The notes under the pieces were generated by a model. The model worked only from the letters and a program-made list of their open reading frames with translations, had not been told where the DNA came from and did no database searches. A stretch of DNA of 64,000 bases from assembly GCA_026545225.1 (NCBI GenBank), contig CM048852.1, positions 13,860,146-13,924,145 on the forward strand, given 5' to 3'. Origin of the DNA: Cornus controversa (taxonomy: Eukaryota > Streptophyta > Magnoliopsida > Cornales > Cornaceae). A program made the translations under genes and the position numbers. Positions 5,189 through 64,000 of the stretch are shown piece by piece. Positions within the stretch are counted from its first letter, which is position 1; every line of letters starts with the position of its first letter.

Positions 5189-5260
5189 AATAAATAATAA
5201 TTTATTTAATAAGTTACGTAACTAATAATAAACTATATAGCATAAATAATAACTTATTTA
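5100..5260. other. Orientation switch point of the satellite
   Basis: Repeat orientation and GC skew both flip here. The turn lies at about 5188 in the word AAATAAATAATAATTTATTT, which both orientations share. The 5105-5188 stretch also has its closest mirror at about 6880-6965 rather than directly across the turn. The junction is therefore not a simple perfect palindrome centre; about 600 bases (4590-5188) lie between the closest-matching arms. Confidence 0.75.
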
Positions 5261-21137: not shown

Positions 21138-21446
21138 TGTAGCACAAGAAAATCGCCGCATAACACGTGTAATCAACAGGATACGTGGCAGCCATGTCAT
21201 CCCCGACAAAATAACGTAGACATAAAAGAAATTCCGAGATCTCCTCCCAAATTGCCAACATTTGAGCACTGAATTCCGGCAGCCAATAAAGGCATAATTT
21301 CATCCTATTAAACGAAGAAATTAAGGGCACAATCAATGTATTCATGACACTATTTAAATGATGGAAAAGAGAATGAAAAGTAGATATTTTTTGGAGAGAA
21401 AGAAAATTTCTCTGTTAAGTGTAGTAGCATTTTTTCTGTACCTACA
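21138..21446 (+). repeat. 5' LTR of the Tat element
   Basis: Starts TGTAGCACAAG, ends CTGTACCTACA. Matches the 3' LTR over its whole 309 bases as far as can be read. A TATA-like TATTTAAAT lies about 90 bases before the end and is a plausible promoter element. Confidence 0.93.
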
Positions 21447-21448
21447 CT

Positions 21449-21467
21449 TTGGCGCCGTCTGTGGGAA
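21449..21467 (+). other. Primer-binding site of the Tat element
   Basis: TTTGGCGCCGTCTGTGGGA directly follows the 5' LTR. TGGCGCC complements a tRNA 3' end of the GGCGCCA type, as commonly used by plant Tat/Athila elements. The exact tRNA is not determined. Confidence 0.7.
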
Positions 21468-21479
21468 ACGAAACAGTCT

Positions 21480-23505
21480 AAAGATTCCTGAGGAGTTTAT
21501 GCCTGTACAGCTACGTTCCGGAACCATAACGGGGCAACCGTCACCCTCACCAGATCACTCGATGGACCAGAATCAGACACAAGAACAACTCCTGCAGGAG
21601 ATGCGGAAACAGTTGGAAGAATCCAACCGAAGGAACGAACTACTACAGGAAAAGATCGCCCGACTCACTGAAAAAAGACCGGAGAACGCTTCCCCTGAGA
21701 GGGGGGCATCGGTAGAATATAATTCTGCTCGAGACGAAGGACGGACAGCTGAACTACCAGGATCCCAAACCACCAGACCGGACGTCAGTTACGACGCACT
21801 GACCAAGCGACTGGAGGAGGTTAACGCCGATATCAAGGATCTGAAGAACCTGACCCCCGCGGATCTGGCAACACAGGTCGCTAGCAAGGTGATACAGTCT
21901 CCTTTTTCAGACGAAATAAGAAAGTCTCCTAATCCGAAGAAATTCACTCTCCCGAGCTTCATCACCTTCGACGGCACGACCGACCCTGTTGACCACCTTT
22001 TTCATGTGCAGCAAAGAATGACTCTGTACGCTGAGGACGAAAACCTCATGTGCAAGGTGTTTCCAACTAGCCTGTCCGGAGCGGCTCTAACTTGGTTTAA
22101 ACAACAGCCTTCAGGAACAATTCCCAGTTTCACAAAACTGTGTGAGCTTTTCATCGCTCAATACATCGGTAACCGGCGACAGAAGAAAACAATTTCTTCA
22201 CTTTTTACCATGAAGCAAACAAAGGGGGAGACCCTGAAATCCTTCATGACCAGATTCAATCTGGAAATGTCTCTGATAGACGGCTGCGACCAGGCCGCGG
22301 CCGTGGAAGCCTTCAAAATAGCCATGATCCCCGGTTCAAAATTCCACTCATCCTTAGTCAGGAAAACTCCCAAGACTATGGGCGATCTAAATGCCAAGGC
22401 GCAGGGATATCTCAGCCTCGAAGAAGATGAAGCCCTGAGACAGCAAAGGACAGCACTGATCAGCGTGGGGTCCATGCCCAAGGACAAGGGCGATAAACCA
22501 AAGACTCAAAGCAGGATACCCCTCGTACCTTCTACATCAGGGAAACGACCCAGGATCGAAGAAAAGAACACGCCACTGAAATGCACCCTGGCAAGATTAT
22601 ATCAAGAAAACAAGGGCCGGGGCATATTCCGAACACCTCCACCGATCCGAGTCCCAGCCGAACTCAGAGATAAAAGCAAACACTGCGCGCTACACCAGGA
22701 TTACGGCCACACCACTAATGAATGCCGGAATCTCAGAGGCCAGACAGAGGCGATCATCGCCAAAGGAGGTCTAGCGGAGTACGTGGTGAAGGGACAACCT
22801 ATTCAGAACGAACGCAGTGCTCCAGACCGAAGAGAGAATCTGAACCAGAATCCAGTCAGGACGATCAATACAATACACGGCTACGCAACCAAAGTGGACC
22901 AAGGATCGAATCGATCCGTCCTTCGCCAAGCAAAAAGAATACAGAAGATGGTGGAAATAAATTCTATTCAAACCACAGGTTCCGCCACCCAGATTACATT
23001 CGGAGATCCAGACCTAATGAGGGTACAACTCCCTCATGAAGATCCACTGGTGATTAGTCTATTGGTGGCCAATTGTTGGGTCAAGAGAGTACTCGTCGAC
23101 GCAGGGTCGAGCGCAAATGTAATGACACTGGAGGTATTCAAGCAGCTAGGAATTGGAGGCGACCAGATCAAGCGAGCCGAAGGTCCGCTAGTAGGATTCG
23201 ACGGAAATAAAGTACTCCCAACTGGAACAGTAGCACTGTCTGTGACGGCAGCGCTAAGGACGCTCAGGGAATCATTTGTGATAGCAGACGTACACTCTTC
23301 GTACAACCTTATAATGGGAAGGGGTTGGATTCACAGAATGCAAGGAGTGCCATCAACCCTGCACCAAGTGATGAGATGTCTAACTCCTAATGGCAAAGGA
23401 ACAGTGGACCTTCGGGGTGATCAGGTAGCCGCGAAGGAATGCTACTCGCTCACCATCAGGAGCACACCGAGAGATGAGAAAACTTCAGAAGCCAACAACC
23501 AATAG
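21480..23505 (+). CDS. Tat element gag-protease region
   Basis: Gag builds the virus-like particle and the protease matures it. An N-terminal coiled-coil stretch (around QEQLLQEMRKQLEESNRRN) is followed by the capsid-type gag domain with GTTDPVDHLFHVQQRM and GAALTWFKQQPSG, typical of plant Retrotrans_gag. A CALHQDYGHTTNECRNL segment follows at the position of a zinc knuckle. The aspartic protease has VLVDAGSSANVM as the active-site region and YNLIMGRGWIH as the flap-distal motif. The reading frame extends back into the 5' LTR, so the true start is uncertain. It looks intact. Regulation would be by the LTR promoter. Confidence 0.88.
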
Positions 23506-23506
23506 C

Positions 23507-26277
23507 AATCACAGAAACCCAGTGTTCCCGAGGGACGGGAGGTCACGGGCATAGCACAACCAGTCGAGCCACTTTTAGAAGTCCAACTAGGCGACCCAGG
23601 AGAAAGCAAAAGTACACGTATCGGGACCTTACTATCAAAAAAGGAGAAGGAAGAGCTGATTGAAGTATTGAGAAGAAATAGAGATGTGTTTGCCTGGACC
23701 CACCTCGACATGCCAGGGATGGACCCCAAATTGGCAAGGCATACATTGAACGTGGACCCTAGCTGCATACCCGTTAAACAAAAGCAGAGGAGGTTTGCCC
23801 CGGAGAGAAACCAGATAATAGCCGAAGAGGTACAACGCCTGCTCCAAGCAAACCTTATCAGAGAGGTAAAATACCCAGAGTGGCTTTCCAACGTAGTGGT
23901 GGTTCAGAAGAAAAATGGGAAGTGGAGGGTCTGCATCGACTTCACCAACTTGAACAAGGCTTGCCCGAAGGATAGCTTCCCACTGCCCAAGATAGACCAG
24001 ATGGTAGACGCTACCGCCGGCTACGAACTACTAACCTTCTTGGATGCATACTCAGGCTACAACCAGATCCCAATGGATCCGAGGGATGAGGAGAAGACCT
24101 CGTTCATTACCGAACGAGGGACTTACTGTTATAAGGTAATGCCTTTCGGCTTGAAAAATGCGGGAGCGACGTACCAACGAATGATCAATCGTGTCTTCAA
24201 AAAACATATTGGCAATACTGTAGAGGCATACATTGACGATATGGTGGTCAAAAGCAAAATGAGACTACACCATCTGCAACATCTACAGGAGATATTCAAA
24301 ACCCTCAGAGAGCATCGACTGAGATTGAACCCATCAAAATGTACTTTCGGAGTATCATCGGGTCAATTTCTCGGTCACATGGTTAGCCAGACAGGAATAG
24401 AAATAAGTCCTTCCCAGGTGACAGCACTAATCCAGATATCAGAGCCGAAGACTCAACGAGATGTCCAAGTCCTAACCGGACGAATCGCCGCACTCAGTAG
24501 ATTCGTATCACGCCTATCGGATAAATGCAAGCCCTTCTTTGATGTTATCCGAAAGAAAAAGGGCAAAGTTTGGGGAGCAGAACAGTCGGAAGCTTTAGAA
24601 AGGCTGAAATTATACATGTCCTCGGCACCTATACTAGCAATACCAAAGACGGGGGAGAAATTACATCTATATCTGGCTGTGTCCAAAGTATCGACAAGTG
24701 CCGCCCTAGTCAGAGAAGAGGACGGAAAGCAGTATCCGGTATACTATTCCAGCAAAACCATGACTGATGCCGAAGGCAGATACTCGAAAGCCGAGAAACT
24801 GATTCTGGCCTTGGTGCACGCAAAGAAGAAGCTAAGACACTACTTTGAATCACATCAGATAGTTGTCCCAACCAATCTACCGCTTAAGGCAATCCTTGGC
24901 AAGCCAGACATGACGGGGAGAATGATGAAATGGGCAATGGATCTCAGCGCTTACGACATCCTCTTCATTCCTCGAACGGCTTGCAAGGGTCAGGTGTTGG
25001 CCGAATTCTTGTTGGAATACGACGACCCAGATGAAGAAGCAGAAAGCTTGTCGCACTGGAGAATATATGTAGATGGATCGTCAAGCCAGAGCGGGGCAGG
25101 AGCCGGGGTAGAAGTAGTAACCCCCGACGGGATTACTTTACACCATGCCGTCCGATTTGATTTCGATGCCTCTAACAATGTAGCAGAATATGAAGCCCTT
25201 CTCGCCGGGCTCCGGCTAGCAAGGTCATTACAAATCAAAAGGCTAGCGATACTCAGTGATTCACAACTAATAGTGAATCAAGTAAACGGGGAATTCCAAG
25301 CTAAGGAGGATAAGATGAACGCGTATCGAGAAGTCGTGCTCGAGATCATGAAAGAGTTCGACGAGGTAGCCTTAAATCACATTCCACGTGAGGAAAATGA
25401 GGCAGCCGACAGGCTGGCGTACTCGGCTTCTAGCGCGGACGAATCTTTAACCAGAGTGTCATCCGTAGAAGAATTGACGGAACCGAGCATCGGGAAACCA
25501 TCGGAAGTATTCACAATCCCCAGAGAATCAAGCTGGATTGATCCAATAGAGGCGTACCTAAGGAACGGAACCCTTCCCGAACAGAAAAAGGAGGCAAAGA
25601 AGCTGAAAATGAAGGCTCTGAGGTACACAATCGTCAACAACCACCTTTACAGGAGATCATTCTCAGGACCATTATTAAAATGTCTAGCACCATCCGAAGC
25701 CAAGAAGGTCTTGAAAGAGATTCACGACGGGGTTTGTGGAAACCATTCTGGGGGCCGATCTTTAGCTCACAAAGCCTTGACAATCGGATATTTCTGGCCA
25801 TACATGTCCCGAGACGCAGCGGAATACTCCCGAAACTGTGACAAGTGCCAAAAGCACGCCCAGCTGCTACACCAGCCACCGGGAGACTTAAATCCAATGA
25901 CCAGCCCCTGGCCCTTCGCCCAGTGGGGGATAGACATGGTGGGACCCTTGCCAATAGCAGCGCAGAAGAAAAAGTACGTTCTCCTAGCAACGGACTACTT
26001 CACCAAATGGGTCGAAGCCGAAGCATACGCATCTGTGACCCACGTGCAGGTCATTAAATTCATTTGGAACCATATCATATGTCGCTTCGGCATCCCCTCG
26101 GCAATCATCATGGATAACGGAAAAAACCTAGACAATCATCATGGATCATGGGAAGGTCCATTTGAGATAATCGAGGTTATTGGAAAAGGAGCATACAGGT
26201 TACGAAGGGTACACGGCAGTGAGGCCATGGTCGAAAAACCTTGGAACGCAACGCATCTAAAAAGGTACTACGTGTAA
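23507..26277 (+). CDS. Tat element pol polyprotein
   Basis: Domains in order: reverse transcriptase (WRVCIDFTNLNKACPKDSFP, FLDAYSGYNQIPM, KVMPFGLKNAGATYQR, catalytic AYIDDMVVKSK); the ordinary RNase H region; a second archaeal-type RNase H (IYVDGSSSQSGAGAGV, NNVAEYEALLAGLR, SDSQLIVNQVNGE); and integrase (zinc motif with CGNHSGGRS and CDKCQKHA, then WGIDMVGPLPIA and TDYFTKWVEAEA). The dual RNase H is the hallmark of the Tat group. The protein copies element RNA and inserts the DNA. It follows gag-protease on the same strand. The integrase region appears somewhat shorter than usual. Confidence 0.88.
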
Positions 26278-26490
26278 GCCTTTGGGCATTTTCTTTTTAT
26301 GAACCTGGAAATCTATTCATTGATGTTGTCCCACACCGGATGAACATTGAATCACGGTACTCTTAATATAACGGGATCCACCCATCCCACCCAAAGGCAG
26401 TGGAATTGAGCGGCAAAGCCAAAAATTTGCCGCGCAGTGCCACTGTCTTAAATAATTTTGGCAAACACCTTCACATGTATGGAGTGAACT

Positions 26491-27276
26491 TCGGCATGAC
26501 TAGCCGAACGTCTCAAATGAATAAAACCGGCCAAGGCATGACCAGCCGAGCGCCACAACTGAACGAGAAACTTCGGCATGACTAGCCGAACGTCTCAAAT
26601 GAATAAAACTGGCCAAGGCATGACCAGCCGAGCGCCACAACTGAACGAGAGACCTCGGCATGACCAGCCGAACGTCTCAAATGAATAAAACCGGCCAAGG
26701 CATGACCAGCCGAGCGCCACAACTGAACGAGAAACTTCGGCATGACTAGCCGAACGTCTCAAATGAATAAAACTGGCCAAGGCATGACCAGCCGAGCGCC
26801 ATAACTGAACGAGAGACCTCGGCATGACTAGCCGAACGTCTCAAATGAATAAAACCGGCCAAGGCATGACCAGCCGAGCGCCACAACTGAACGAGAGACC
26901 TCGGCATGACTAGCCGAACGTCTCAAATGAATAAAACCGGCCAAGGCATGACCAGCCGAGCGCCACAACTGAACGAGAAACTTCGGCATGACTAGCCGAA
27001 CGTCTCAAATGAATAAAACTGGCCAAGGCATGACCAGCCGAGCGCCACAACTGAACGAGAGACCTCGGCATGACTAGCCGAACGTCTCAAATGAATAAAA
27101 CCGGCCAAGGCATGACCAGCCGAGCGCCACAACTGAACGAGAGACCTCGGCATGACTAGCCGAACGTCTCAAATGAATAAAACCGGCCAAGGCATGACCA
27201 GCCGAGCGCCACAACTGAACGAGAGAACTCGGCATGACTAGCCGAACGTCTCAAATGAATAAAATTGGCCAGGGCA
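26491..27276 (+). repeat. 82-bp minisatellite of the Tat element
   Basis: About 9.6 copies of an 82-bp unit. Each unit contains two similar halves: TCGGCATGACTAGCCGAACG plus TCTCAAATGAATAAAAC, and AAGGCATGACCAGCCGAGCG plus CCACAACTGAACGAGA. Copies differ at only a few positions, mainly AAACTT versus AGACCT at the unit border and C/T in AAAACYGG. It lies between pol and the antisense ORFs. Retand-type elements are known to carry an amplified tandem repeat in this place. Confidence 0.95.
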
Positions 27277-27470
27277 TCAAATGAATAAAATTGCTCTTTA
27301 GCATGAAATACGCCATTAGAACGGCCAAATATGGATGAAAGTGCAGAATACAGAAAGTAAAGAGGAATGCCGGAAAAACAACAGAGATACCGAAAGAAAA
27401 AAGTTGTATTCCATTATAATAGAGTCTTCAAGAAATACATATACACAAAAATAAGAATACAATGGCAAAA

Positions 27471-28076
27471 TCAATCCGCTGAAGGGGCCGCTGCAGAAGC
27501 ATCGCCCTCATCAAAAATACTGGCGATCTCTTTCTCTTCATCTCCCTCCTCTGGATCTTGATAAGGGGGCCCTTTCAGATTCATCTCTCGGTCATATTCG
27601 TCGGGTCCACCCGGATAAGAGCGATCGTCCTCGGGAGCCCCCGCATCATCAAAGCCTTGACGATACGCTTCGGCATTTCTGATCTGGACAGTACGAGACA
27701 ACCTATCAAACAAAGCTTTGGCACCTTTCTCCAGTTTGATTGATCGTTCTTGCAAAGAATTAACATTCATCTCCGCCTCAGATATTCGGGACTCAATCAA
27801 AGCCCTCTGGAACTCAGCCTCCTCTTTCCTTTTGGAAAGATCTTCCACCTGAGACCTCAGTTGTTCATTCTCCAGCAAGAGAGCCTGAGACTTTGCCTTC
27901 TCACTGCTAACTTCGCTCATGGCGGCCCGAAAATCAGCTTCAGCTTTCCTGACCCGAATATCGGCCTTCTTAACTTTGATGGTAGCTTGCTCCACCAACT
28001 TACACATAGTCATGACGCCGAACATATTCTGCGAAAACGCAAAGTTATTAAAAGAAAGAAGACAGCAAGAAAACAC
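27471..28076 (-). CDS. Antisense coiled-coil ORF of the Tat element
   Basis: A 201-codon antisense ORF. Its middle is strongly heptad-like and charged (SEKAKSQALLLENEQLRSQV, then KRKEEAEFQRALIESR), predicting a long coiled coil. The C-terminus is acidic (DPEEGDEEKEIASIFDEGD). It lies just downstream of the larger antisense ORF. The short gap between their similarity regions has GT and AG borders, so the two may be exons of one antisense transcript. Tat relatives are known to have antisense ORFs here; the function is not established. Confidence 0.65.
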   Translation of the reverse strand: MFSCCLLSFNNFAFSQNMFGVMTMCKLVEQATIKVKKADIRVRKAEADFRAAMSEVSSEKAKSQALLLENEQLRSQVEDLSKRKEEAEFQRALIESRISEAEMNVNSLQERSIKLEKGAKALFDRLSRTVQIRNAEAYRQGFDDAGAPEDDRSYPGGPDEYDREMNLKGPPYQDPEEGDEEKEIASIFDEGDASAAAPSAD

Positions 28077-29532
28077 GAATCAGAGTTAAAAGCGTTTTCA
28101 CCACCTTCAGTTCCGCTTCAGGACAAGACTCCAGAAGACTGCCAACGGAGAGGTCTAGCATCATCTTTGCATCCTTAGGAGGCCACATCTCCTTCAAGAA
28201 TGCCTTCATGGACTCCCTGTTTTCAAGTAAGGAGTCCTCAACAGATAGGGGCATACCGTTGGTTTTCACCATTCGATGGACCCATGGCTCCGAAGCCGAA
28301 GAACTTGGGATATCCGATCCCACCACTGTCGCCCCAACGACGGGGGACTCCCCAGGTACAGAAGTAGAAGGGGAAGCCAAAGTCGTCACCTTCAGAGATT
28401 TTGGAGGTGGGGCAGCCTCCTCCAACTCAATCACTTCGGTGGGGCATGACCTCTCGGCCTCCACTTCCTCGGAATGCCTTTTTCGCAAGGCCGACGCCAC
28501 CACCATCTCTTGCTCGGTCGGCGGATCACCAAGGTTGTTCACCTCGGTCGACCTTCTGGTCTTAGTGCGTGTAGTCTTAGGAAGCTTCATCTCAACAGCT
28601 ACCGCACCTTTAGAGATAGCTGCGAGTACACCCGAACTCAAAAGAGAGGAAGACTTGGGAACGCTTTTCCACACCTTCTCTCTCAGAGTCTTCAATCGCG
28701 CTGCTAATTCAGAGCGGGGTAAAAGATCCCTAACTGCACCAGCAAAACACCGAATTTGATTAAACAACGAAACATCACATATAATGCAGTTACAATGAGG
28801 GTCAGAAAGGAAATCAGGGGACGGGATACCTAATCCACCAAACGACCAGGAAATGGGGTACTTATCAGAAGAGGGAACTCTCCATTTCCCCCCAACAACC
28901 ACAAGCTGAGCCTTCCAGCCCTTGTCCGATGAGGGATGACCAGTGCAGAGCGACCTGCCTGGGCGGGGGAAGAAATGGAAGCGATTCCTCTCGTTCTTGG
29001 TAGCACAGACTTGGTAGCAAAGGAGAAGATCGTCAAACCCCAACTCGAGGCCACGAGTATAGTTAAGCGCAAGGACGCTGGAAACAACCCTAAAGAAATT
29101 AGGGTTAACTTGCAAAGGGGCCAGATGCAATTGGTTAAGTACAAGGTGATAAAAAGGATGAAGAGGAAACCGAAAGGCTGGGAAATGCCTAGCCGAAAAG
29201 AGCATTTCACCCTTGTTCAAATGCTCACCCGATCGAAAATCGGAATCAAGAGGGTAATTCCTAAGAGTGACGTCAGACGGAACCTCACAGTCAATTCTGA
29301 GTTTACCCAAATTTACAGGAGTCCTAACTAGGTCCCGATCGACGTCCTCCAAATCAGAGTCTGAAGAACTCTGATCCCCGGAAGGATGAGGTTCAGCTGC
29401 TGTCGAAGGGACAGAGGGATTCTCCGGCGGAACCCGGCCATCAACACCCTCAGCCAAGAACTCGTCAGTCGACTGATAACGCTCCAACGGCCCAAATTTA
29501 TCAACAATCTCTACACCTTTCATCCTACCCAT
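28048..29532 (-). CDS. Antisense ORF with gypsy-type 'putative transposon' domain
   Basis: A 494-codon antisense ORF. The stretch around FRFPLHPFYHLVLNQLHLAP, then VSSVLALNYTRGLELGFDD and FFPRPGRSLCTGHPSSDKGW resembles the plant domain named putative gypsy type transposon (Transposase_28). That domain occurs in antisense or accessory ORFs of Tat-type elements. N- and C-terminal parts are low-complexity and acidic or serine-rich. It ends just before the coiled-coil ORF. The start at 29532 is the first methionine and gives MGRMKG. Transcription would have to begin within or near the 3' LTR on the opposite strand. Function is unknown; DNA cutting is not implied. Confidence 0.65.
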   Translation of the reverse strand: MGRMKGVEIVDKFGPLERYQSTDEFLAEGVDGRVPPENPSVPSTAAEPHPSGDQSSSDSDLEDVDRDLVRTPVNLGKLRIDCEVPSDVTLRNYPLDSDFRSGEHLNKGEMLFSARHFPAFRFPLHPFYHLVLNQLHLAPLQVNPNFFRVVSSVLALNYTRGLELGFDDLLLCYQVCATKNERNRFHFFPRPGRSLCTGHPSSDKGWKAQLVVVGGKWRVPSSDKYPISWSFGGLGIPSPDFLSDPHCNCIICDVSLFNQIRCFAGAVRDLLPRSELAARLKTLREKVWKSVPKSSSLLSSGVLAAISKGAVAVEMKLPKTTRTKTRRSTEVNNLGDPPTEQEMVVASALRKRHSEEVEAERSCPTEVIELEEAAPPPKSLKVTTLASPSTSVPGESPVVGATVVGSDIPSSSASEPWVHRMVKTNGMPLSVEDSLLENRESMKAFLKEMWPPKDAKMMLDLSVGSLLESCPEAELKVVKTLLTLIRVFLLSSFF

Positions 29533-29784
29533 ACCTCAGAAGTAAAGAAGAAGAAAGAAACAGTAGTAATGAAGAAAAGGATGGTCACTAACCTCAACAG
29601 GCGAGAAGATAACCCTTGAAATGGTCCAGAGTCTACAGCAATCCAGGAATAGGAAATCAAGTACAAAACATTTATGAGGAAATGACGTTAAGGCGGCCCA
29701 ACGAGGGCACAAAACCCAAACACGGTCTGGCGGTGCAAACGAAGCGGCATCCATAATGGAAAAACCCTTTCAAATTCCTTCCAA

Positions 29785-29809
29785 TTCAAAAGGGGTTTTT
29801 GGGGCAAAG
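29785..29809 (+). other. Polypurine-tract region of the Tat element
   Basis: AAAAGGGGTTTTTGGGGCAAAG ends at the 3' LTR start. This is the usual place for plus-strand priming, although here the purine run is broken by a T tract. Confidence 0.55.
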
Positions 29810-30118
29810 TGTAGCACAAGAAAATCGCCGCATAACACGTGTAATCAACAGGATACGTGGCAGCCATGTCATCCCCGACAAAATAACGTAGACATAAAAG
29901 AAATTCCGAGATCTCCTCCCAAATTGCCAACATTTGAGCACTGAATTCCGGCAGCCAATAAAGGCATAATTTCATCCTATTAAACGAAGAAATTAAGGGC
30001 ACAATCAATGTATTCATGACACTATTTAAATGATGGAAAAGAGAATGAAAAGTAGATATTTTTTGGAGAGAAAGAAAATTTCTCTGTTAAGTGTAGTAGC
30101 ATTTTTTCTGTACCTACA
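29810..30118 (+). repeat. 3' LTR of the Tat element
   Basis: A 309-base copy of the 5' LTR from TGTAGCACAAG to CTGTACCTACA, followed by the GAGAG duplication. Confidence 0.93.
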
Positions 30119-53040: not shown

Positions 53041-56000
53041 TACTTCTGACCTGATGCCAGAGGATCTTCCTCCTGGGCTACCGCCTATGAGGGATATTCA
53101 GCATCAGATTGACCTTGTTCCGGGGTCCAGTTTGCCTAATCGACCGGCGTATCGCCTCAGTCCCAAGGAATCTGAGGAGTTACAGCGGCAGGCGGTAGAG
53201 TTGCCGGAGAGGGGCTACATTCGTGAGAGTATGAGCCCATGTGCAGTTCCTGCTTTGCTAGTGCCGAAGAAAGATGGCTCTTGGCGTATGTGTGTTGATA
53301 GCCGAGCAATCAACAGGATTACAGTGAAGTACAGGATTCCAATTCCCCGTCTGGATGATATGTTAGACCAGCTGTCCGGTTCTAAGGTCTTCTCAAAAAT
53401 TGACCTTAAAAGCGGCTACCACCAGATCAGAATAAGGCCCGGGGATGAGTGGAAGACAGCGTTTAAGACGCAACATGGGTTGTATGAGTGGATGGTCATG
53501 CCTTTTGGGCTGTCCAATGCGCCCAGCACATTTATGAGGTTTATGCATCAGGTTTTACGGCCTTTTATGGGAAAATTCGTCATAGTTTACTTTGATGACA
53601 TCCTCGTCTATAGCCCGACATAGATGTCACACTTTGATCACCTCCGTGCTGTCTTTGATTTGTTGAGGACAGAGCACATGTTCGTCAATCAGAAAAAGTG
53701 TATTTTCTTCACTACTTCTATAACTTTTCTGGTTTTTGTGGTGTCTACTGATGGTGTTCATGCAGATCCGTCGAAGATAGACGCGGTTTTGGAGTGGCCC
53801 AAACCGAAAACCTTGCACGATGTTCGAAGTTTCCATGGATTGGCATCTTTCTACCGTCGGTTCATCAGAAACTTTAACACTCTGATTGCTCCCATCACAG
53901 AGTGCCTCAAGGGACGTGATTTCCATTGGTCCGAGGAGGCAGAGGCCAGTTTTCATCTGGTCAAGCAGAAGATGACAGAGGCACCAGTTTTGGCACTTCC
54001 CGACTTTGAGAAGGTGTTTGAGGTAAACTGTGATGCATCTGGGGTGGGCATTGGTGGTGTTCTGAGTCAGGAGGGGCGTCCAATAGCTTTTTTCAGTGAG
54101 AAGCTATCAGGATCGAAGAAAAATTATTCCACCTATGATCTGGAGTTTTATGCCATCATTTAGTCCCTAAAGCATTGGCGTCACTACCTAATACAGAGGG
54201 AATTCATTCTCCTCACTGATCATGAGGTCTTAAAATACATCAATGGCCAGCACAAACTGAGTAGACGGCATGCCAAGTGGGTGGCATACTTGCAAGAGTT
54301 CACATTTGTGCTGAGGCACCAGGCAGGGATCTGAACCGTGTTGCAGATGCACTGAGCCGTCGTACGTTGCTCCTCACCACCATGAGCACTAGAGTTGCAG
54401 GTTTTGATACATTCTCTGATATGTATGCTGTAGATCCTTCCTTCGGGAGGATAATTCAGGAGGTAACTGATGGTCAACGCCATGATTTTATTTTGCACAA
54501 TGGTTACCTGTTTCATGGATTAAAGTTGTGTATCCTAGATTGTTCACTAAGGCAATAGATTATTAGTGAACTTCATAACGAGGGTCATTTTGGACGAGAC
54601 AAGACGTTGGATCTGATCTCTTCCAACTATTATTGGCCCAAGTTGACCAGTGACGTGGCTCATTATGTGGAGCGTTGTTATATGTGTCAGCGGTCCAAGG
54701 GAGTTCTCACCAATGCGGGCCTGTACACACCTTTACCGGTCCCTAAAGCTCTTTGGCTTGATGTCAGTATGGACTTTGTGTTGGGCTTACCTCGTACCCA
54801 ACGAGCCATGGATTCTATTTTGGTTGTGGTCTACCGGTTTTCCAAGATGGCCCATTTTGTTGCTTGCAGGAAAACAATGGATGCTGCCCGGGTCGCTCAT
54901 CTTTACTTCAAGGAGATTGTGCATTTACATGGTGTTCCCCAACCCATTACTTCAGATCGTGATACCAAGTTCATGAGTCAATTCTGGAAGAGTCTATGGG
55001 AGAAACTGGGAATGAAGTTGAATTTTAGCAACGCCTACCATCCTCAGACAGATGGTCAGACAGAGGTGGTGAACCGGAGTTTGGGGAACCTTTTGAGGAG
55101 TTTGGCAGGAACTAAACCAAAGCAGTGGGATTTGGCATTACCTCAAGCAGAATTTGCTTATAATAGGTCGAAGAACAGATCAACAGGAATGAGCCCATTT
55201 GAGATTGTTTATGGTCAGAACCCATCTGGGGTGCTTGACTTAGCCCCTATTCAGCGTGTGGGTCGTTTCAATCGCAGAGCAGATGAGATGGCAGAACATC
55301 TTCGAGGTATCCATGAGCAGGTCAAGCTGGCCATTCACGAGAGTAATGCCAAGTACAAGGTTCAGGCTGACAGCCACCGTCGTCAAGTACTTTTTGACGT
55401 TGGTGATTTTGTTTGGGCGGTATTAACTCGTGATCGTTTCCCTGTTGGAGAGTATAACAAGCTAAAGGAGCGAAAGATTGGTCCCTGTGAGATCCTGCAG
55501 AAGATCAATGATAACACCTACAGACTGCGCCTCCCCAGTCATTTGAGGACTTCTGATGTCTTTAATGTGAAACATCTGAGTCCTTGTTTTATGGATTCCA
55601 ATGAAGCTGTTGTAAACTCGAGGACGAGTTCTTTCCAACCCGAGGTGACTGATGCAAGAGCATCTGAGTCAGATGATGCTGAGCTGTCAGACAACACGTT
55701 GATGGCACTGAAATATCTTGAGTTGGCAGATCAGCGTAAAGATGGCAGGAAACCGTGACCTTATCACTAATTAGGGTATTTTTGGATGCGTTTCAGTATT
55801 TTGACCATAACTTTGGCTACAGGTGTCAGAATCGCCTTTATGACCACAATTCGAAAAGCTTGGTTCGGCGCGCACGTCGTGGGCACCAAGCTAAAGTTGG
55901 GTGTGCATTTTCTCGAGGCCAAAATCCTCTATTTTCCCCTCCGAATCCCTAATTTTAGTTATTTCTTTCCTTTTTTGGTAATATTTATTTTTGTTGATTA

Positions 56001-56290
56001 GGAAGAGATTCTGGGTTTGATTTGGGCCAGATTTCTAGCAACTTCCTTCTTTTATTTCGTATTTTATTTTGGAACAAATATTAGGTTTTTGCTATTTTTG
56101 GTAATATTGACGAAGTTCAGCTATATAACCCGGCTTGTGGGTTGATTCGAAGGCACTTTGATTTTGAATACTAACATTGAATATCAGAGACTTTTCTCTG
56201 AGTTTTTGGGCAATTCTCGTGCTTTCTTTCTGTTTATTTTCTGTTGCCCTTAGCCTACAAAATAATCACTATTCTGTCCGGCGTCATCTT
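53040..56290 (+). mobile_element. 5'-truncated Ty3/Gypsy chromovirus (CRM/Reina-like)
   Basis: Pol and 3' end only. Reverse transcriptase (about 53054-53620: [61 protein letters not shown], catalytic [10 protein letters not shown]); RNase H (about 53950-54370); integrase (about 54560-55500: SMDFVLGLPRTQ, HGVPQPITSDRDTKFMSQFW, YHPQTDGQTEVVNRS); C-terminus with RTSDVFNVKHLSP and no full chromodomain. The spelling fits the CRM/Reina side of chromoviruses. Gag, protease and the 5' LTR are absent. About three to four interruptions, so younger than the Tekay and Copia fossils. Confidence 0.85.
55765..56290 (+). other. 3' noncoding/LTR remnant of the chromovirus
   Basis: After pol come TTGACCATAACTTTGGCTAC and GGTGTCAGAATCGCC, then a TATA-like CTATATAACCCGG near 56120. 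This is noncoding, LTR-like DNA. The border with the Tekay-type LTR to its right is not sharp; CT-rich sequence from about 56290 already looks like the reverse complement of a Tekay-type leader. Confidence 0.45.
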
Positions 56291-56449
56291 CTCTCGGCTG
56301 CCTCTTTTCTCTCTTTAAAACTTCTCTCTCTTAGGTTTTCTCTCTTTTTATTTTTTTAGAGATTCTAATCAAATCCCCAATAAATGGAAGAGGAAACAAT
56401 AATAAATAAATAAATAATACTTAACTCATATTAAAATACATTAACCTAA
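56290..56449 (-). mobile_element. Tekay-type LTR, minus orientation, distal half
   Basis: CT-rich leader-like sequence followed by ATTTATTTATT-type AT-rich DNA, in the order expected for the reverse complement of a Tekay-type LTR (compare 36900-36990). It continues at 63005 on the far side of the non-coding LTR element. Confidence 0.5.
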
Positions 56450-57000
56450 TGTGGGGGAAGAAAATTCCCACCAATAGGAAGAAGACACCTGAGCATAAGA
56501 AAAGTCAACATGGTACACATGGACTGATTTGGGTCAGTACTGAAAAAGATACGTGAAAATTAATTATGCTAACGTGGACATCACATGTGGCAGCTACAGT
56601 CAACCGGTCAAAGAGAGATCATCAAATCAGGTTCAAATTAGGAAATATCAGATTCTTTCCTTGAGAAAAGGGACTGATATAAATCAGCCTCAAATCAAGG
56701 GAGAATCACGGAGTAATCGGCACCAAATCAGCACTAGAATGGAAACACTCCTTGTATAAATACGTATAGAAAATCCCCTCACAAGAGGAGAGGCCGGAGG
56801 TGGCTAGGTGAGGGAAATCCTGAGTGCAATTCTTGTAATATCTGATGAAATGAAAAGAAAGTCTCCTCTCATCCATGGACGTAGGCCGAATTGTGCCGAA
56901 CCATGTAAATCCTGTTTGTCTCCTTTAATTTTTTCAATTATTGAGTGTTATGTGCTTATTAATTGCTTGATTTTACGTTGGGCAATTTTGTGTACTTACA
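56450..57000 (+). repeat. 5' LTR of the non-coding element
   Basis: Starts TGTGGGGGAAGAAAA, ends GGGCAATTTTGTGTACTTACA-like sequence, and carries a TATA box at 56755-56762. Nearly the same length and sequence as 62449-62999. Confidence 0.93.
56755..56762 (+). promoter_or_regulatory. LTR TATA box
   Basis: TATAAATA within CCTTGTATAAATACGT, about 245 bases before the LTR end. The same word is at 62754-62761 in the 3' LTR. A usual core-promoter position for plant LTRs; activity not shown. Confidence 0.6.
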
Positions 57001-57002
57001 TT

Positions 57003-57021
57003 TTGGCGCCATCTGTGGGAA
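57003..57021 (+). other. Primer-binding site of the non-coding element
   Basis: TTGGCGCCATCTGTGGGAA right after the 5' LTR, almost the same as in the Tat element at 21450. Confidence 0.75.
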
Positions 57022-57129
57022 CTGATATGAATTCCCTCACTTTGTTCGCAACCATGTGTTCTCTCTGGCTAGAAGAATAAGGTCATTCTTATGGATCTAT
57101 ATTTAGGGGACAACCATTAGAATCATAGG

Positions 57130-57298
57130 AAAAATATACAGAGTGTTGTCAAAATCTGATAACAAGGCTTTCTGCGGTTTCTTGGGACTGATTGGGTGCG
57201 GAATCCACTCTGTTTGATCAAATTATTCATCAGTGAATCACTATAAAGATAAGTTTTTTCAAAGCCAAGTCATTCTCTTTTAATATGTAAAGTATGGA

Positions 57299-57336
<38 letters not shown>

Positions 57337-58870
57337 GACATGAGATAGTGCGAACTACATATTACCTACCTTGCAGCAAAATATGGAGTATAATATCACC
57401 TATTTATATACGTGTTTATATGCAATTATGTATGTATGCACTGAAGTATGTATCTTTGTTTGTTTTATATGTATATAGAATTATATATACTTGCAGCCAT
57501 GCTCAGAGATCAAGCATGAAGGCCATCATTGGTGGTGCACTTAGGATGGCGTGAGAATCAGAGGTACATCGAGGTAGATCAAAAATGAGATCTCTTCGGT
57601 AGATCTAGTCATTGGAATGAAGATCAAACATACCTTTTGGATCAGTACCAATCTGATTATAAATTGACAAATGGGCTCATCACCGAACATGGTTTCCCAG
57701 CCAAAACCATCAACACTGATGGTTTCATCTGGAAGGTTATTTTGTTTATATCTACATTTTCCATACAACAATGGTAAAACAAGAAGAAAGCAAGAAAAGG
57801 GGGAAAACCACCAGTTTGGTCCAGATTTTCCTCTCCAATCCACAATATTTATGACCAAAATATAGCCAGAATCACACCATTGATCAAGAGATTTATGCTC
57901 GTGCTTATCGGCGATGGATCAATTTCTCACATTTTATGATGCATATATATGTATGTATATATACATATTAACAAATATGTACACATGAGAAGTTTGGCCC
58001 TGCTATTATTCACATTGGTGGTTGATCTACAACCTATTCTCAAATCAATGTTTTCAAGCATGTCGTATGCCATTTGACTGATCATGCCATATATATATAT
58101 ATATACACAACATGATTGATCAAAGGATTAATCGGATGATCAGGCCATGCCCAATCAGATTCTCAGGCACAAGTCCAAGTTATACTCATGCCAGTGGCGT
58201 GTATGGGTTGTATATTTTATACAAACCATATACTACGGGCATAGATAACAACGGCTTGCAATGGCAATCTTCACCCAGTTCTTTTGTTCACAATCACCAT
58301 TTCAATTGATGATCTGCAATTCTTGAACATCTAACAATTTAACTTGGAACATCTAATTCTGCCAATTGAACATAACACATGTGAGAACGTGTATGAAGTC
58401 AAACATTCTCGACTCATAGTGAGTCTCTCGCTCCATTCACAATTTCTTTGCCGACATATTCTATGACAGTAAGAATGAGGCCTTTGAAGGCCAGTACAAT
58501 ATCGCTCCATTGAGTAATATACAGAGTGTTGTCAAAGACTGGCTTGATCCGAGTGAGTCTCCTGTCAATTTCTCGAGACCAACAGGCGCGAAAGTTCATC
58601 CGATCAGATCTTTCATCAATGCTCTATAAGAAAGATAAGTTTTTTCTGTTCAAAGCTAAGTCCTATTGTTTCCATATATAAAGTATGTAGTATCACATAT
58701 ACATATTTACATATAAATATAAATATGTAATATAATGTGTGACAATAAAAATTGTAGATTGCCTCATCTCCCATCTGTTTATGTTTATATCTACAATTAT
58801 ATATGTGTGCACTAAAGCATTTATCCATGTCTGTATGGAATGCATACAGAATCATATATAAGCGCAACCA
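57130..58870 (+). repeat. Diverged 1.38-kb duplication inside the non-coding element
   Basis: ATATACAGAGTGTTGTCAAA at 57136 and at 58519 begins two similar stretches. Both run through a CTTGGGACTGA/CTCGAGACCAA-like part and AAGATAAGTTTTTTC with TTCAAAGC(C/T)AAGTC. Both later contain a TGCACT(G/A)AAG(T/C)AT plus AGAAT(T/C)ATATATA segment (57430-57490 and 58805-58860). The DNA in between is unusually rich in GATC and CGATCA words, noncoding and unrecognised. Confidence 0.65.
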
Positions 58871-59099
58871 ATGTGGGGTTAATTATTGAAGATGAGGAAG
58901 AATTGGACAGGGGCCCTGTTCGCTTTGGTGAGGGAGATGATTCTATGCTATCTAAAAATCATGCAATTCCTGAACAGGAAGAGAGAACAATTTGCCCATC
59001 AACCATAATTGAGGCTGCCGATCCGCAATCAGATTTAAAAGGATTAGCTCGTGCGACCGAGGAGGTCAAGTCACAGAGCAAACAATTGACTATATAATT

Positions 59100-60330
59100 C
59101 TGTCTATTCGAGTGAATCTCCGAACAATGCCTCTCTCATATGAAAGTCTGGGCTTCAATTGTCTATCAAAGTGATTACAAAAGCCGCTACTCACTCCAGA
59201 ACGTGCCGAGTCGATCGGAGTTCTGAAGTCAGCAAGAGCAACATCCAAAAGTTTATAGGAAATTCCTCCATTTTTGTCTAGAAAGAATTCAAGAAGCCCA
59301 TGCCATGTTTGATTAGATTCGTAGTGCCGATCTGAAAGTTCCAGTTTCATGGCTTTTATAACATCCATGGTCAGATCATGTCGGCCTTTGGATCATCGTT
59401 ATGCCCGATCAGTTCTTCAAATTATCATTTTGCTGATCATTGGTTCGAATTATTCAATCATGGATGTTGTCGATCAGCATCTTCATCAACCAACGATCAG
59501 CATAACATCAACAAATCGAGTGGCCGAACTCCTATAACTTCATCATTGATCAGTGGTCGGACCCATGCTCTGATCCGTCAATACCAAATGTCTAGCGTGA
59601 GATGGTGGTACAAATTTGGACTTCATTCAATTGGGTGCCTGAATCTGTCCTCTGAATCAGAAACTCCATCACAAATTGAAACATTTCATCATCAATTACA
59701 ATCTTCGTAATTAGATTGATTGAATCAGTCTTCATCACCAACGATCAGAATATTACCAACCAATCTAATTATGAATGCTGATTATGGATGCTTTCGGTTG
59801 GTCTAGTCGTCATCATCGATCGATCGGCAAGAACAATAGCCGAACGAGCAGAAGATCGTTTATCTTCGACACACCTGATCATTCATGTTCGAACGCAATA
59901 CCTTCTTCATTCTCGATCCAAATCAGCCGTTCTTGATCGCATGTCAACCAAGGATTAACATATTTATCGATCAAGTCCACTGATCTTTAGACTATGACAT
60001 CCGGTGGCTTATTCCTCCCGCTCCAATGGTGAAGGCAGTTGATGGATCGGTGGTTTAGATCGATGATAATGGCTTCCTAGCCAAAAGCATCATCGATCAG
60101 GAAAACTTGAACCATTAATGCCGGTCGGTACTCTACAATTTCATTACCAATCGAAGCACACTATCACCAATGACAATCCCCATAACTGCTAAGGCTGAAC
60201 GAGGTTTGCTGGTAACAACAATGAATGGTCACCGGACTTTGGAATTATGAATTGAAGTTGCCTTAGCAGGGAAGCCATGGGAATATGCAGAAATACATAG
60301 AATCTCGATTCTCAACTCTGGTATGCTTAT
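59100..60330 (+). other. Unrecognised GATC-rich interior of the non-coding element
   Basis: Short open stretches but no domain. Words such as TGATCATTGG, CGATCAG and GATCGATCGG are dense. No gag, protease or reverse transcriptase motif on either strand. Confidence 0.5.
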
Positions 60331-60336
60331 ATCTGC

Positions 60337-60337
<1 letters not shown>

Positions 60338-60392
<55 letters not shown>

Positions 60393-60670
60393 AAATCTCA
60401 GTTCAATAATTTATTTAATTAGCAATAGACATAAACATACAAGGCATATACAATTACATGTCATGTATGTATATCAGAACATACAAGGCATATACAAATA
60501 CATGTCATGTATGTATATTAGACACACAATCTCTTATACTCTCTTGCCCACTAAACTCAAGTGGTTTTTTCAGAAACCAACTTTATATATATATATATAT
60601 AGTGGTTTTTTCAGAAACCAACTTTTTCAGTTTCAAAGAAGCTTGAATTTAAAAAAAAAAAAAAAAAAAG
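60338..60670. repeat. Microsatellite and short duplications
   Basis: A long (TA)n tract (about 60338-60391). Then a tandem pair of AACATACAAGGCATATACAA plus TACATGTCATGTATGTATAT (about 60433-60522). Then a pair of AGTGGTTTTTTCAGAAACC about 40 bases apart (60560-60625). Finally an A tract of about 20 at 60650-60669. Confidence 0.85.
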
Positions 60671-61229
60671 AGGAACTCAAATTTGTACAAAAATCTGACA
60701 CTGAATCGTCTTTATACTCCTAGTTGGTTTACACAAAAACACACAAACTCAATACTAGTATTTTAAGAGTTTATGTGGTGTTAACCTTTCAAAAGGACGC
60801 AATAAAACATATGGATATGTTTGAAATTAATACACACATAACTGTCAGGCCTCTCAAAACTTATGGTTTTAGTGAAAAACATATTGTCTAACTTTATTAG
60901 AAGAGTTGAGATTGAGCTTAAATAATTGGCGAATTTATGTGAATGAAAGAAACCAGACTATTTTAATTTTTCTAGAGTCAACATGAACTTGAATAGATTG
61001 CTTGCTCATTTAGTAGCTTCTGGTACCATTTTCGGGATTAATAACTTTATTGACTAGCATGGCTCATGGTCATAGCTAAATATGGTGGAAGAGACTATCA
61101 ATCTTCAGTGCAAGTTTTTGGAAGGGACCATCAGCCTTGAAGCTACACAACAATTAAAGTTGTATTCGCAATCCAATTTGTTTCCTGATAGAGACAATCC
61201 AAGAGCACAACAACTATGCCATTACCAGC

Positions 61230-62350
61230 AGAGCACTACAAACACTACAAACAAATGGCTAAGGCATGGCCAGCCGAACGCCAGAAAGAAAGTCTCGATA
61301 TAACTAGCCGAGCACTACAAACAAATGGCTAAGGCATGGCCAGCCGAACGCCAAGAAAAAAGTCTCGGCATGACTAGCCGAGTACTACAAACAAATGGCT
61401 AAAGCATGGCCAGCCGAACGCCAGAAAAAAAAAAAGTCTCGGCATGACTAGCCGAGCACTACAAACAAATGGCTAAGGCATGGCCAGCCGAACGCCAGGA
61501 AAAAAGTCTCGGCATGACTAGCCGAGCACTACAAACAAATGGCTAAGGCATGGCCAGCCGAACGCCAGAAAAAAAAAAGTCTCGGCATGACTAGCTAAGC
61601 ACTACAAACAAATGGCTAAGGCATAGCCAACCGAATGCCAGAAAAAAAAAAAAAAGTCTCGGCATGACTAGCCAAGCACTACAAATAAATGGCTAAAGCA
61701 TGGCCAGCCGAACGCCAGAAAAAAAAAGGTCTCAGCATGACTAGCCGAGCACTACAAACAAATGGCTAAGGCATGGCCAGCTAAACGCCAGATATTAGTG
61801 GAAAGACATCGGCATGGTTAGCCAAGAGTCTTAGATGAATGAAATTGGCTAAGGCAAGGCCAGCTGAACACTAGAATAAAAAAAAAAAGGCCCCAAGAGC
61901 CGAACGAAAAACTAGCTAAGGCCTGATCAGCCGAACGCTAAGGCCCAAGAGCCAAATGAATAAATAGGCTAAGGAACAAGATTCTAATTACCAAAAATAA
62001 TAAAGCCTTAAGAGCCAAACGACCTCAAGAGCCAAATGGTAAATTGGTTGAGGCATGACCAGCCGAACTCCAATAAATAGTGGTAACAAGCCAAAGGGGG
62101 CTGATCTCGAGTAAAATGGCAATGGGGGTTGACCGCCAATAAAAAGGCAAGACTAGCCGAGCACCAAATATGAATAAAATGACAAAGGCATGACTAGCCT
62201 AACATCATAAAAAAGTAACAATAAGCCAAATGGGGCTGATAGCTAATAGCACAGGTGGCTGATCGCCAACAAAATGTTTGAGTGACAAAGGGCCAACCCT
62301 GTGGTTTGAAGAACCGAACAACAAAAAAAGGGCTAAGACATGGTTAGACA
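61230..62350 (+). repeat. 70-bp minisatellite of the non-coding element
   Basis: About eight regular copies from 61257 to 61800: ATGGCTAAGGCATGGCCAGC, CGAACGCCAGA, an A run of variable length, AGTCTCGGCATGACTAGCCG, AGCACTACAAACAA. Period is about 70 bases plus the A-run variation. Copies become degenerate through about 62350, with AGGCATGACCAGCCGAAC still recognisable. The core matches the Tat-element minisatellite at 26491. Confidence 0.9.
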
Positions 62351-62448
62351 AGAGCACCCCTATCTCCATAATGATTAGAAGCATGAATTTGTATAAATTC
62401 CCTCCAGTTGAGACTGTTACGTCCAACTAAAGGGAATTGGGGGCTGAG

Positions 62449-62999
62449 TATGGGGGAAGAAAATTTCCACCAATAGGAAGAAGACACCTGAGCATAAGAA
62501 AAGTCAACATGGTACACATGGAATGATTTGGGTCAGTACTGAAAAAGATACGTGGAAAGTAATTGTGCTAACGTGGACATCACATGTGGCAGCTACAGTC
62601 AACCGGTCAAAGAGAGATCATCAAATCAGGTTCAAATTAGGAAATATCAGATTCTTTCCTTGAGAGAAGGGACTGATATAAATCAGCCTCAAATCAAGGG
62701 AGAATCACGGAGTAATCGGCACCAAATCAGCACTAGAATGGAAACACTCCTTGTATAAATACGTATAGAAAATCCCCTCACAAGAGGAGAGGCCGGAGGT
62801 GGCTAGGTGAGGGAAATCCTGAGTGCAATTCTTGTAATATCTGATGAAATGAAAAGAAAGTCTCCTCTCATCCATGGACGTAGGCCGAATTGTGCCAAAC
62901 CATGTAAATCCTATTTGTCTCCTTTAATTTCTTCAATTATTGAGTGTTATGTGCTTATTAATTGCTTGATTTTACGTTGGGCAATTTTGTGTACCTACA
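62449..62999 (+). repeat. 3' LTR of the non-coding element
   Basis: A 551-base partner of the 5' LTR, preceded by a purine-rich AAAGGGAATTGGGGGCTGAG and followed by the CCTAA duplication. Confidence 0.93.
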
Positions 63000-63004
63000 C
63001 CTAA

Positions 63005-63334
63005 CATCTTAACAATTATACTCCAACTCAAATTCAATATTTCAACCCAAACTCTCCCTAACCCAATTTGAAAAAAATTAATGAAAATAAAATAATAGAA
63101 AGTACAAAACTATGGCCCAACCTAAAGAAAAAAAAAACTAAACAACCAGAAACATTTATCATTTAAGACACCCAATAACAATTTAAAGAAGTAAAACATT
63201 TAACATTTAAAACACTCAATCCACAATTTAAACAATTAGAACAACACCAAATTAAAATTACATATCACTCAATTTAAACAATTAGAAAAACACTAAATTA
63301 AAATTACATAACCTCAAAATTATAGGGTATTACA
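63005..63334 (-). mobile_element. Tekay-type LTR, minus orientation, proximal part
   Basis: On the minus strand it starts TGTAATACCCTATAATTTTG at 63334 and resembles the starts at 36517 and 41067. It was split from 56290-56449 by the non-coding element. Confidence 0.75.
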
Positions 63335-64000
63335 ATTAATTTGTTCCTTTCAGTGTTGTTCTTGCTCGAGTAAATGACCCTTGAACATTTGGAATTAGAT
63401 AATAGAGAAATTTGGGTTTAAATTTTGAAATTGTGTTGAAGAACCCTAAAACTTGTGATTTGGGGATTTTTGATTCAGGCCATTATTGATGGGGCTTTTT
63501 TTTATCAATAGGTAGATTAGACCAAGAGGAGAATTTGGGTATAAAATGGGGGTAAATGGTGGTCAAAAACTGCTGGAAAGTGGCCGAAAAAGCGCTGGAC
63601 GTGTTGTTGCGCTCAAGAAGAAAGGGAGTAGGGCAGCACATGCTCACGCGCGCTGCCAGTGTGTGGGGGCGCGTGCCACTGGCTCCAGTGCTGGCTAGGG
63701 CCGGGGAAAGCTCTGTTGGGCCCCACTTGACGAGGCCCACCAATGGGCCAGTTTGGGCCCAATCCGGAGTGTTTTAATATTTTTTATTATTATTTTAATC
63801 TTTAATTCATTCTTTTCAAATGTAGAAAATGAGGAAAATGTTTTAAATTACTTTTAAATTCTAGAAATTTTTTAAAATTCAAATTTATCTTTTAGGGGCA
63901 GAATACACTTTGATTTTAAATTTCAACATGAAATAAGTTCCCCTTGTTTAGAATTAGTACAAAAGTATGCTTCAAACTTGGATTTTTATTTTCTTTTGTT
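63335..64000 (+). mobile_element. Tekay-type LTR inner segment, plus orientation
   Basis: Similar in order to 37330-37990. An ATTTTTGATT(C/T)AGGC stretch is followed by a GC-rich core with GGGCCAGTTTGGGCCCAATC. Then come AGAATACACTTTGATTTTAA and GGATTTTTATTTTCTTT. No coding region. It continues past the window edge and abuts the oppositely oriented LTR at 63334. Confidence 0.65.

Follow-up and report, generated by a model that had tools for sequence, protein, structure and literature searches.

Two long terminal repeat (LTR) retrotransposons lie 26.3 kb apart in a 64,000-nt stretch of the Cornus controversa genome (C8:13860146-13924145, contig CM048852.1 of assembly GCA_026545225.1), hereafter the window: a gene-bearing element with the layout of the Tat/Retand group, called A, and a gene-less one, called B. 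Comparing B with its relatives in the 772 Mb genome, we found that its lineage keeps the LTR, the primer binding site (PBS), a minisatellite array, the tail behind this array and the polypurine tract, and exchanges the rest. The units of the array, of around 42 nt, can form a stem-loop, and the repeat is common to A and B, whose LTRs are unrelated. The best explanation of the whole, to which we give slightly less than an even chance, is that B is a gene-less Retand-like element moved by gene-bearing Retand helpers via a 3' stem-loop cis signal.

A reading of the window made from the sequence alone (hereafter the sequence-only reading) had proposed two elements around 26 kb apart with different LTRs, one of them without genes. 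Both are real insertions with LTR pairs and target site duplications (TSDs). Element A spans 8981 bp (21138-30118) and is flanked by GAGAG, and element B spans 6.55 kb (56450-62999), of which 5.4 kb lie between the LTRs. B carries LTRs, a PBS, a polypurine tract and a TSD, but no gag-pol, and tblastn gave no match between B and the gag, pol or antisense open reading frames (ORFs) of A. Its LTRs are 98.2% identical, i.e., 11 of 551 sites differ (9 transitions, 2 transversions); the 3' LTR starts with TATG at 62449, where the 5' LTR has TGTG. The PBS TTGGCGCCRTCTGTGGGAA has two exact matches in the window, starting at 21449 and 57003, and allowing up to three mismatches adds no site (0.01 expected). 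When positions 15000-36000 were compared with 55000-64000 by blastn, the minisatellites were the only similar parts (67-71% over up to 683 bp), and both core motifs are present in both arrays. The LTRs of A and B have no blastn match to each other. Only their last ~10 bp are alike (common tip ...TGTACCTACA; B 5' LTR ...TGTACTTACA), and hence we call B Retand-like. That it would be a deletion derivative of A was rejected, since the similarity is limited to the PBS, the LTR tip and the repeat. Outside the two elements, 48,240 bp of the window remain, and in these the core motif has no match with up to two mismatches on either strand. Across the genome the PBS has 712 matches and GGCATGRCCAGCCGA has 853, and the reversed patterns have none. 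The shared PBS and minisatellite thus stand for both elements. The placement of the repeat before the 3' LTR, which the sequence-only reading gave for both, fits A less well: its array directly follows pol, and two antisense ORFs lie in the 2.5 kb that separate it from the 3' LTR. In B, the regular array stops ~0.7 kb before the 3' LTR and degenerate units continue to ~250 bp from it.

To search for the family of B, we used its 5' LTR as query, which gave 449 candidates, and scored the best 40. Together with B, 16 relatives with an LTR pair (loci L009-L024) make up the B-type elements, and in their 136 pairs we compared the coverage of the middle (from primer site to array, 1.7-6.9 kb) with that of the array plus tail. 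Middle coverage was below 10% in 47 of the 136 pairs, and coverage of the array plus tail was below 10% in none. For example, L009 has LTRs 96.7-97.1% identical to those of L010-L013 and an array and tail covered at 98-100%, with a middle covered at 0%. Downstream of the 5' LTR, the 47 middle-swapped pairs stay homologous for only 21-70 nt (median 42), i.e., to a point shortly behind the PBS, and thus a leader signal farther in is not the shared part. Recombinants, which the sequence-only reading had suggested looking for, therefore exist in the form of swapped B-type middles; together with the retained ends, these show that the lineage keeps its cis parts and exchanges the rest. The longest open stretch listed in the B-type middles has 140 aa, and of seven open stretches that we picked by hand (from B, L009, L010, L014, L020 and L021) none matched a Pfam family. 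Hence, we dropped the idea that the middle of B consists of captured host genes; short fragments of such genes may be present.

The swaps might also come from the array itself, if it were a hot spot of recombination or strand transfer. Paired repeats would stall the reverse transcriptase (RT) and offer homology, leading to chimeric cDNAs, which would keep the array and shuffle the middles. In some swapped pairs the homology does resume about at the array: between L009 and L010-L012 it begins 905-1015 nt before the 3' LTR, and the array of L009 starts at 1002. The unit-wise changes in array length described below also fit. Yet breakpoints lie elsewhere too, the middle being partly common next to the array in other pairs (33% between L009 and B, 61% between L010 and L015), and a hot spot alone does not explain the complementary arms of the units. 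We regard this explanation as rather unlikely; it accounts for the swaps and may hold alongside the others.

Retention of the repeat is complete among the B-type elements. All 17 have the PBS (up to four mismatches) and 7-34 core motifs (up to two mismatches) before the 3' LTR, and none matches the gag, pol or antisense ORFs of A by tblastn. Their LTR divergence ranges from 0 (L009, L023) to 0.059 and is below 0.01 in six, and 13 have an exact 5-bp TSD. Many young gene-less copies without the minisatellite, which the sequence-only reading had named as evidence against itself, did not appear, given that the repeat is kept in 17/17 including the six with divergence below 0.01. We also fetched four single LTR hits (L025-L028). 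Three of them (L025, L027 and L028) lack both the primer site and the motif and have the appearance of solo LTRs. The fourth, L026, has 45 motifs (up to three mismatches) before its 93% LTR. This locus (C5:9109792-9118792) comprises two B-type 3' ends in opposite orientations, one of them cut ~200 bp short of the expected array. A search independent of the repeat used the polypurine block, i.e., the 3' part of a stem-loop of B that runs into the polypurine tract. It gave 44 exact sites in the genome, and the reversed control none. Sixteen of these sites were read, two of them in L026, and 15 have an array (L042 and L045 among them had been selected by motif); the exception is the truncated 3' end in L026.

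The chief rival to a cis signal is passive retention near the 3' LTR. The repeat would then be the hypervariable 3' untranslated region (UTR) of an ancestral Retand 3' end, remade by slippage or strand transfer, with swaps that spare both ends. We consider this a real, if tentative, possibility. It is favored by passages of the literature that describe tandem repeats as frequent in the 3' regions of Tat elements and as specific to the family (Vicient 2025, PMC11963269; Vondrak, PMC7004042), by the position of the array, which is near the 3' LTR in B, and by the A-type copies, which differ by whole 82-bp units. Against it, retention persists at 86-90% LTR identity, and the repeat is kept across A and B, which otherwise have no internal blastn match. 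The array of A lies 2.5 kb from the LTR, such that it would be missing from a B that retained no more than the outermost 3' end. Finally, the same pattern recurs with an unrelated repeat in a second group of elements (see below).

We then analyzed the units themselves, taking 514 of them (412 distinct) from 28 elements. A typical stem-loop, from B, is AGTCTCGGC-ATGACTA-GCCGAG-C-ACT, and the main arms of the units are GGC/GCC, GAC/GTC and AGT/ACT. The three outer pairs form in 83.4% of the 514 units, compared with at most 33% when the arms are slid and 75.2% (largest 76.9%) when the 3' arms are shuffled. Taking one unit per element (28) and only columns unused for unit finding, 82% are paired vs 69% shuffled and at most 37% slid. 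Pair counting in 53 units gave 87.1% paired vs 78.7% shuffled, 39 cells changed on both sides vs 15 +- 3, and a covariation score of 0.353 vs 0.218 (slid at most 0.110), and none of 500 shuffles reached any of these values. Double changes occur in all four outer pairs, and the three inner pairs have one-sided changes only. That three of the five covariation measures exceed every shuffle argues against purely passive retention. We grade the covariation as suggestive, because the pairs were chosen post hoc, the units are related and the arms are of few types. Variant units occur in L017-L020 and L024, e.g., GAGGCAACTGGCATTATAAGCCGATCGCCTAA; here the pairing of the outer arms (AGGC/GCCT) is shifted by one column.

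Folding the arrays against dinucleotide shuffles gave negative z in 13 of 13 samples (-0.7 to -5.1), and within six elements, windows taken outside the array folded as well as the array mean in 0-21% of cases. For comparison, we folded 15 other tandem arrays of the window, 8 of them from one satellite; 13 had z between -1.95 and +0.98. The remaining two were at -4.5 and -7.8, and we therefore rejected the fold z as proof of structure. The stem-loop before the polypurine tract of B is a 13-bp, interrupted one whose 3' arm is part of the tract, and a majority of the 17 B-type copies are predicted to form it. We rejected it as a feature common to every family: z is -4.9 in B and -2.5 in L007, and A, L044 and L029 are not above shuffles (L029 was cut without one arm). 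The strand of action was also sought in the counts of G-U and A-C pairs, an approach that we dropped because the counts were judged by eye, mixed and confounded by CpG decay.

By its layout, A is a gag-pol Tat/Retand element. In its pol, RT_RNaseH (residues 330-429) is followed by RVT_3 (468-586) and then by Integrase_H2C2 (675-730), i.e., the second, archaeal-type RNase H sits between RNase H and integrase, and 3.5 kb separate the end of pol from the 3' LTR (26277 to 29810). The copy in the window is young, with identical LTRs, but integrase-defective: its integrase core match covers positions 4-78 of 102, and the region is ~490 bp shorter than in L029, L031 and L035 between the same aligned residues. 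Hence, the claim that the Tat element can mobilise B is unsupported for this copy, whose integrase region is ~0.5 kb short and which has no complete integrase. Longer A-type copies exist. With the A LTR as query, the best 40 of 182 candidates included 20 LTR pairs at 97-100% identity, window A among them, and 18 of these 20 have lengths of 9233 bp plus or minus whole 82-bp units, within 0.1 unit. Six fetched copies with 3, 7, 11, 13, 15 and 17 motifs measure 8819, 8994, 9151, 9241, 9315 and 9393 bp, respectively, which corresponds to 41 bp per motif with a fit within 8 bp. On the line drawn from these six copies, A is ~0.5 kb shorter than its 19 motifs predict.

To study where the repeat occurs, we grouped the first 100 of the 853 motif places of the genome, i.e., those on C1 below 69.4 Mb, into 37 clusters of the exact motif. 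Fifteen of them have an exact PBS no more than 14 kb upstream on the same strand, compared with a mean of 0.36 (largest 8) for shifted sites and 0 on the opposite strand. Conversely, of 82 exact primer sites, 12 are followed by an exact motif. From the 22 unlinked clusters we fetched 10, chosen by hand and mostly among the larger ones. All 10 are inside Tat elements, either beside A-type antisense ORFs (8 clusters, 37-90% amino-acid identity) or before a B-type LTR (2 clusters), and one of the remaining 12 falls in L017. Hence, a wide occurrence of the repeat outside Tat-group elements, which would have counted against the sequence-only reading, was not seen in this hand-picked sample. The locus L040 has the exact core motif with antisense proteins ~38% identical to those of A, and its array is in two blocks ~1.5 kb apart. 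Retrotransposons can pick up satellites, and one might thus imagine that the sharing is due to chance or that a convergent genomic satellite was captured independently by two elements. This is very improbable given that none of the 10 fetched clusters lies outside Tat elements, that the reversed patterns have no match and that the 15 PBS-linked clusters far exceed the mean of the shifted sites. The sequence-only reading had also raised antisense control, in which the array would act in antisense transcripts or as their terminator or promoter. The array of A does lie just beyond both antisense ORFs on the antisense strand, but the B-type elements keep the array with no match to these ORFs, and we find this role improbable.

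The repeat marks one Tat subgroup and not Tat as a whole. We sampled every tenth of 80 PBS sites and read the resulting eight. Six have another LTR type, which we call group II, and two (L031, L034) have A-like LTR ends and genes. The 10 kb that we read at L031 and at L034 contain no core motif and no complete LTR pair. The coding elements of group II (L029, L032, L033 and L035) carry an unrelated repeat, CCCTACGGGG..., behind pol, in 4-6 copies. The different repeat of group II and the lack of the motif in L031 and L034 led us to reject the repeat as a Tat-wide marker. The gene-poor elements of group II, L036 and L030, carry 20 and 7 copies of CCCTACGGGG, respectively, and this repeat has no copy in the five group I loci tested. 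L036 has 3.8 kb, LTRs 99.7% identical and a gag remnant. L030 also has a gag remnant, with no LTR pair called; its two primer-site matches (521 and 3326) perhaps reflect a nested or tandem insertion. A much smaller element, L007, has ~1.1 kb between its LTRs, with a primer site and four 85-bp units of variant core GGCATGATCAGCC. Its LTRs are 89% identical and it is thus not young.

How might these parts work together? We suggest that B would be an LTR retrotransposon that is non-autonomous and akin to the Retand branch of Tat. Its lineage would pass on a set of cis parts around a replaceable middle, namely the LTR, the primer site, the polypurine tract and, in the 3' part, an array of ~42-nt stem-loops. 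The helper proteins would most likely come from gene-bearing A-type Retand copies with the same PBS, LTR end and stem-loop repeat. Retroviral 3' elements act in particle uptake or in export of unspliced RNA, and by analogy a role of the array in RNA seems most likely: stem-loops in the 3' region of the element RNA would mark it for uptake by Gag and particles or for export unspliced, and a gene-less RNA keeping them would still be carried. The shared parts, the retention, the swapped middles and the copy-number stepping are observed, whereas the identity of the helper and the action of the stem-loops in RNA, and there in packaging or export, are what we infer. A more general version holds that the stem-loop minisatellite is a portable Retand mobilisation signal, i.e., a 3' RNA array that, with LTR, PBS and polypurine tract, is enough for helpers to carry any cargo. 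Each group would have its own array, conserved in structure rather than in sequence, with gene-less riders and exchangeable middles. This version is rather doubtful.

Several observations weigh against the helper and cis-signal explanation. The 17 B-type LTR pairs, drawn from the best 40 of the 449 candidates, include no gene-bearing element. Three core motifs are all that one young A-type copy contains, both LTRs of which are 99% identical to those of A; A-type elements can thus move without a long array. In B-type elements the array is near the 3' LTR and could persist merely because swaps fall upstream. Two of the covariation measures do not exceed the shuffles: pairs with double changes (4 vs 4.5 shuffled, reached by 473 of 500 shuffles) and further pair types (13 vs 12.5, reached by 244 of 500). 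According to the tool, these are the measures least inflated by relatedness, and their outcome also fits passive retention. Moreover, the stem pairs were picked after viewing some sequences, which favors them over the slid versions. The fold z of the arrays varies, and the two control arrays that reach -4.5 (at 60434, in the middle of B) and -7.8 (at 17179) are self-complementary. Finally, the hairpins are alike on both strands, and thus action in RNA is not told from action in DNA or antisense. The earlier suggestion that retention points to a cis signal therefore holds in part: retention in 17/17 elements and the stem-loops make a cis role plausible, but the stricter covariation measures are not above shuffles.

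The features of the two elements are given in Table 1.

Table 1. Features of elements A and B, in window coordinates.
Feature	Position	Strand	Remarks
A 5' LTR	21138..21446	+	TGTAGC...CCTACA; self-blast, TSD GAGAG
A gag ORF as listed	21358..23505	+	Retrotrans_gag, E 8.3e-14; first ATG inside LTR
A primer binding site TTGGCGCCGTCTGTGGGAA	21449..21467	+	Pattern search
A pol ORF	23668..26277	+	RT, RNase H, second RNase H (RVT_3), integrase; Pfam
A minisatellite	26487..27277	+	Tandem Repeats Finder (TRF): 82 bp x 9.6; two core motifs per unit, 19 core motifs
A antisense ORF 1	27471..28076	-	No Pfam match
A antisense ORF 2	28048..29532	-	Weak Transposase_28 (PF04195) match, 20.4 bits, cutoff 26.2
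A 3' LTR	29810..30118	+	Identical to A 5' LTR
B TSD CCTAA, 5' copy	56445..56449	.	3' copy 63000-63004
B 5' LTR	56450..57000	+	551 bp, TGTG...TTACA; self-blast, pairwise alignment
B primer binding site TTGGCGCCATCTGTGGGAA	57003..57021	+	Pattern search
B middle	57022..61230	+	Non-coding, exchangeable; absent from several copies with near-identical LTRs
B hairpin minisatellite	61243..62201	+	Regular array 61243-61792 (TRF 70 bp x 7.6), then degenerate units
B stem-loop AATTCCCT...AGGGAATT	62396..62448	+	Runs into polypurine tract; z -4.9
B 3' LTR	62449..62999	+	Starts TATG, ends CCTACA

Elsewhere in the window, positions 1-10700 are an AT-rich array of ~52-bp units, found on one strand up to ~5.14 kb and as the reverse complement from ~5.19 kb, i.e., one satellite in two inverted halves. 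The control array at 17179-17292, with fold z -7.8, is a strongly self-complementary 37-bp repeat (ATCTCGATCAATCGAG...). Directly upstream of B, at 53054-55758, there is a broken gypsy-type pol with RT, RNase H and an integrase with a Tf2-1-like SH3.

Kejnovsky et al. reportedly described in 2006 the elements Retand-1 and Retand-2 of Silene latifolia, partners with highly similar LTRs. B resembles them as a gene-less partner whose tandem repeat is common to a gene-bearing element, and A likewise has antisense ORFs. In contrast, the LTRs of A and B have no blastn match, and the B-type copies have several swapped middles. Large retrotransposon derivatives (LARDs) and the pair Dasheng/RIRE2 are further examples of a large gene-less LTR element sharing terminal signals with a helper. 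B has a similarly large gene-less internal region (5.4 kb, no coding match), but its LTR of 551 bp is not very long, unlike those of barley LARDs, which are much longer, and its link to the helper includes the 3' stem-loop array. Terminal-repeat retrotransposons in miniature (TRIM) and small LTR retrotransposons (SMART) are very small elements, unlike B with its 6.55 kb. The hypervariable 3' UTR repeats of Ogre/Tat elements were reportedly described by Macas in 2009, and those minisatellites, in the accounts covered here, lie between the coding region and the 3' LTR as in our elements. Part of the work of Vondrak indicates that they occur also in non-autonomous elements with large deletions (PMC7004042). 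The Gmr9/GmOgre study reports, in the portion considered, that 90% of Gmr9 minisatellites are associated with Gmr9 and 9% with other retrotransposons (PMC3305785). The passages concerned in both papers treat such repeats as a source of satellites, with no cis role tested (PMC7004042, PMC3305785).

Retand of Silene latifolia comprises, in an excerpt of PMC12477314, autonomous elements and non-autonomous ones with just LTRs and an expanded tandem repeat. L007 and the gene-poor elements of group II echo the gene-less elements described in that excerpt. Sections of the Retand survey attribute antisense ORFs to Silene Retand, and state that the 3' repeats are family-specific and of unknown origin and function (PMC11963269). 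A agrees with those sections in its second RNase H, its 3.5 kb from pol to LTR, its antisense ORFs and its tandem array; the same sections have neither a repeat common to several LTR families nor a hairpin analysis. In the literature searched, which mostly excluded subscription papers, we found no report of hairpin covariation or of sharing of Retand repeats across LTR families. Hence, gene-less Retand partners with expanded repeats were known, and the repeat common to unrelated LTRs and the swapped middles are added here.

Copies with LTRs 94-97% identical and unrelated middles provide a natural test of the role of the 3' minisatellite, and this genome has two unrelated repeats, each common to coding and gene-poor copies. 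If the array is a cis signal, it would account for the use of helpers by gene-less elements whose LTRs are foreign, and would explain why such satellites are repeatedly regenerated in plant genomes.

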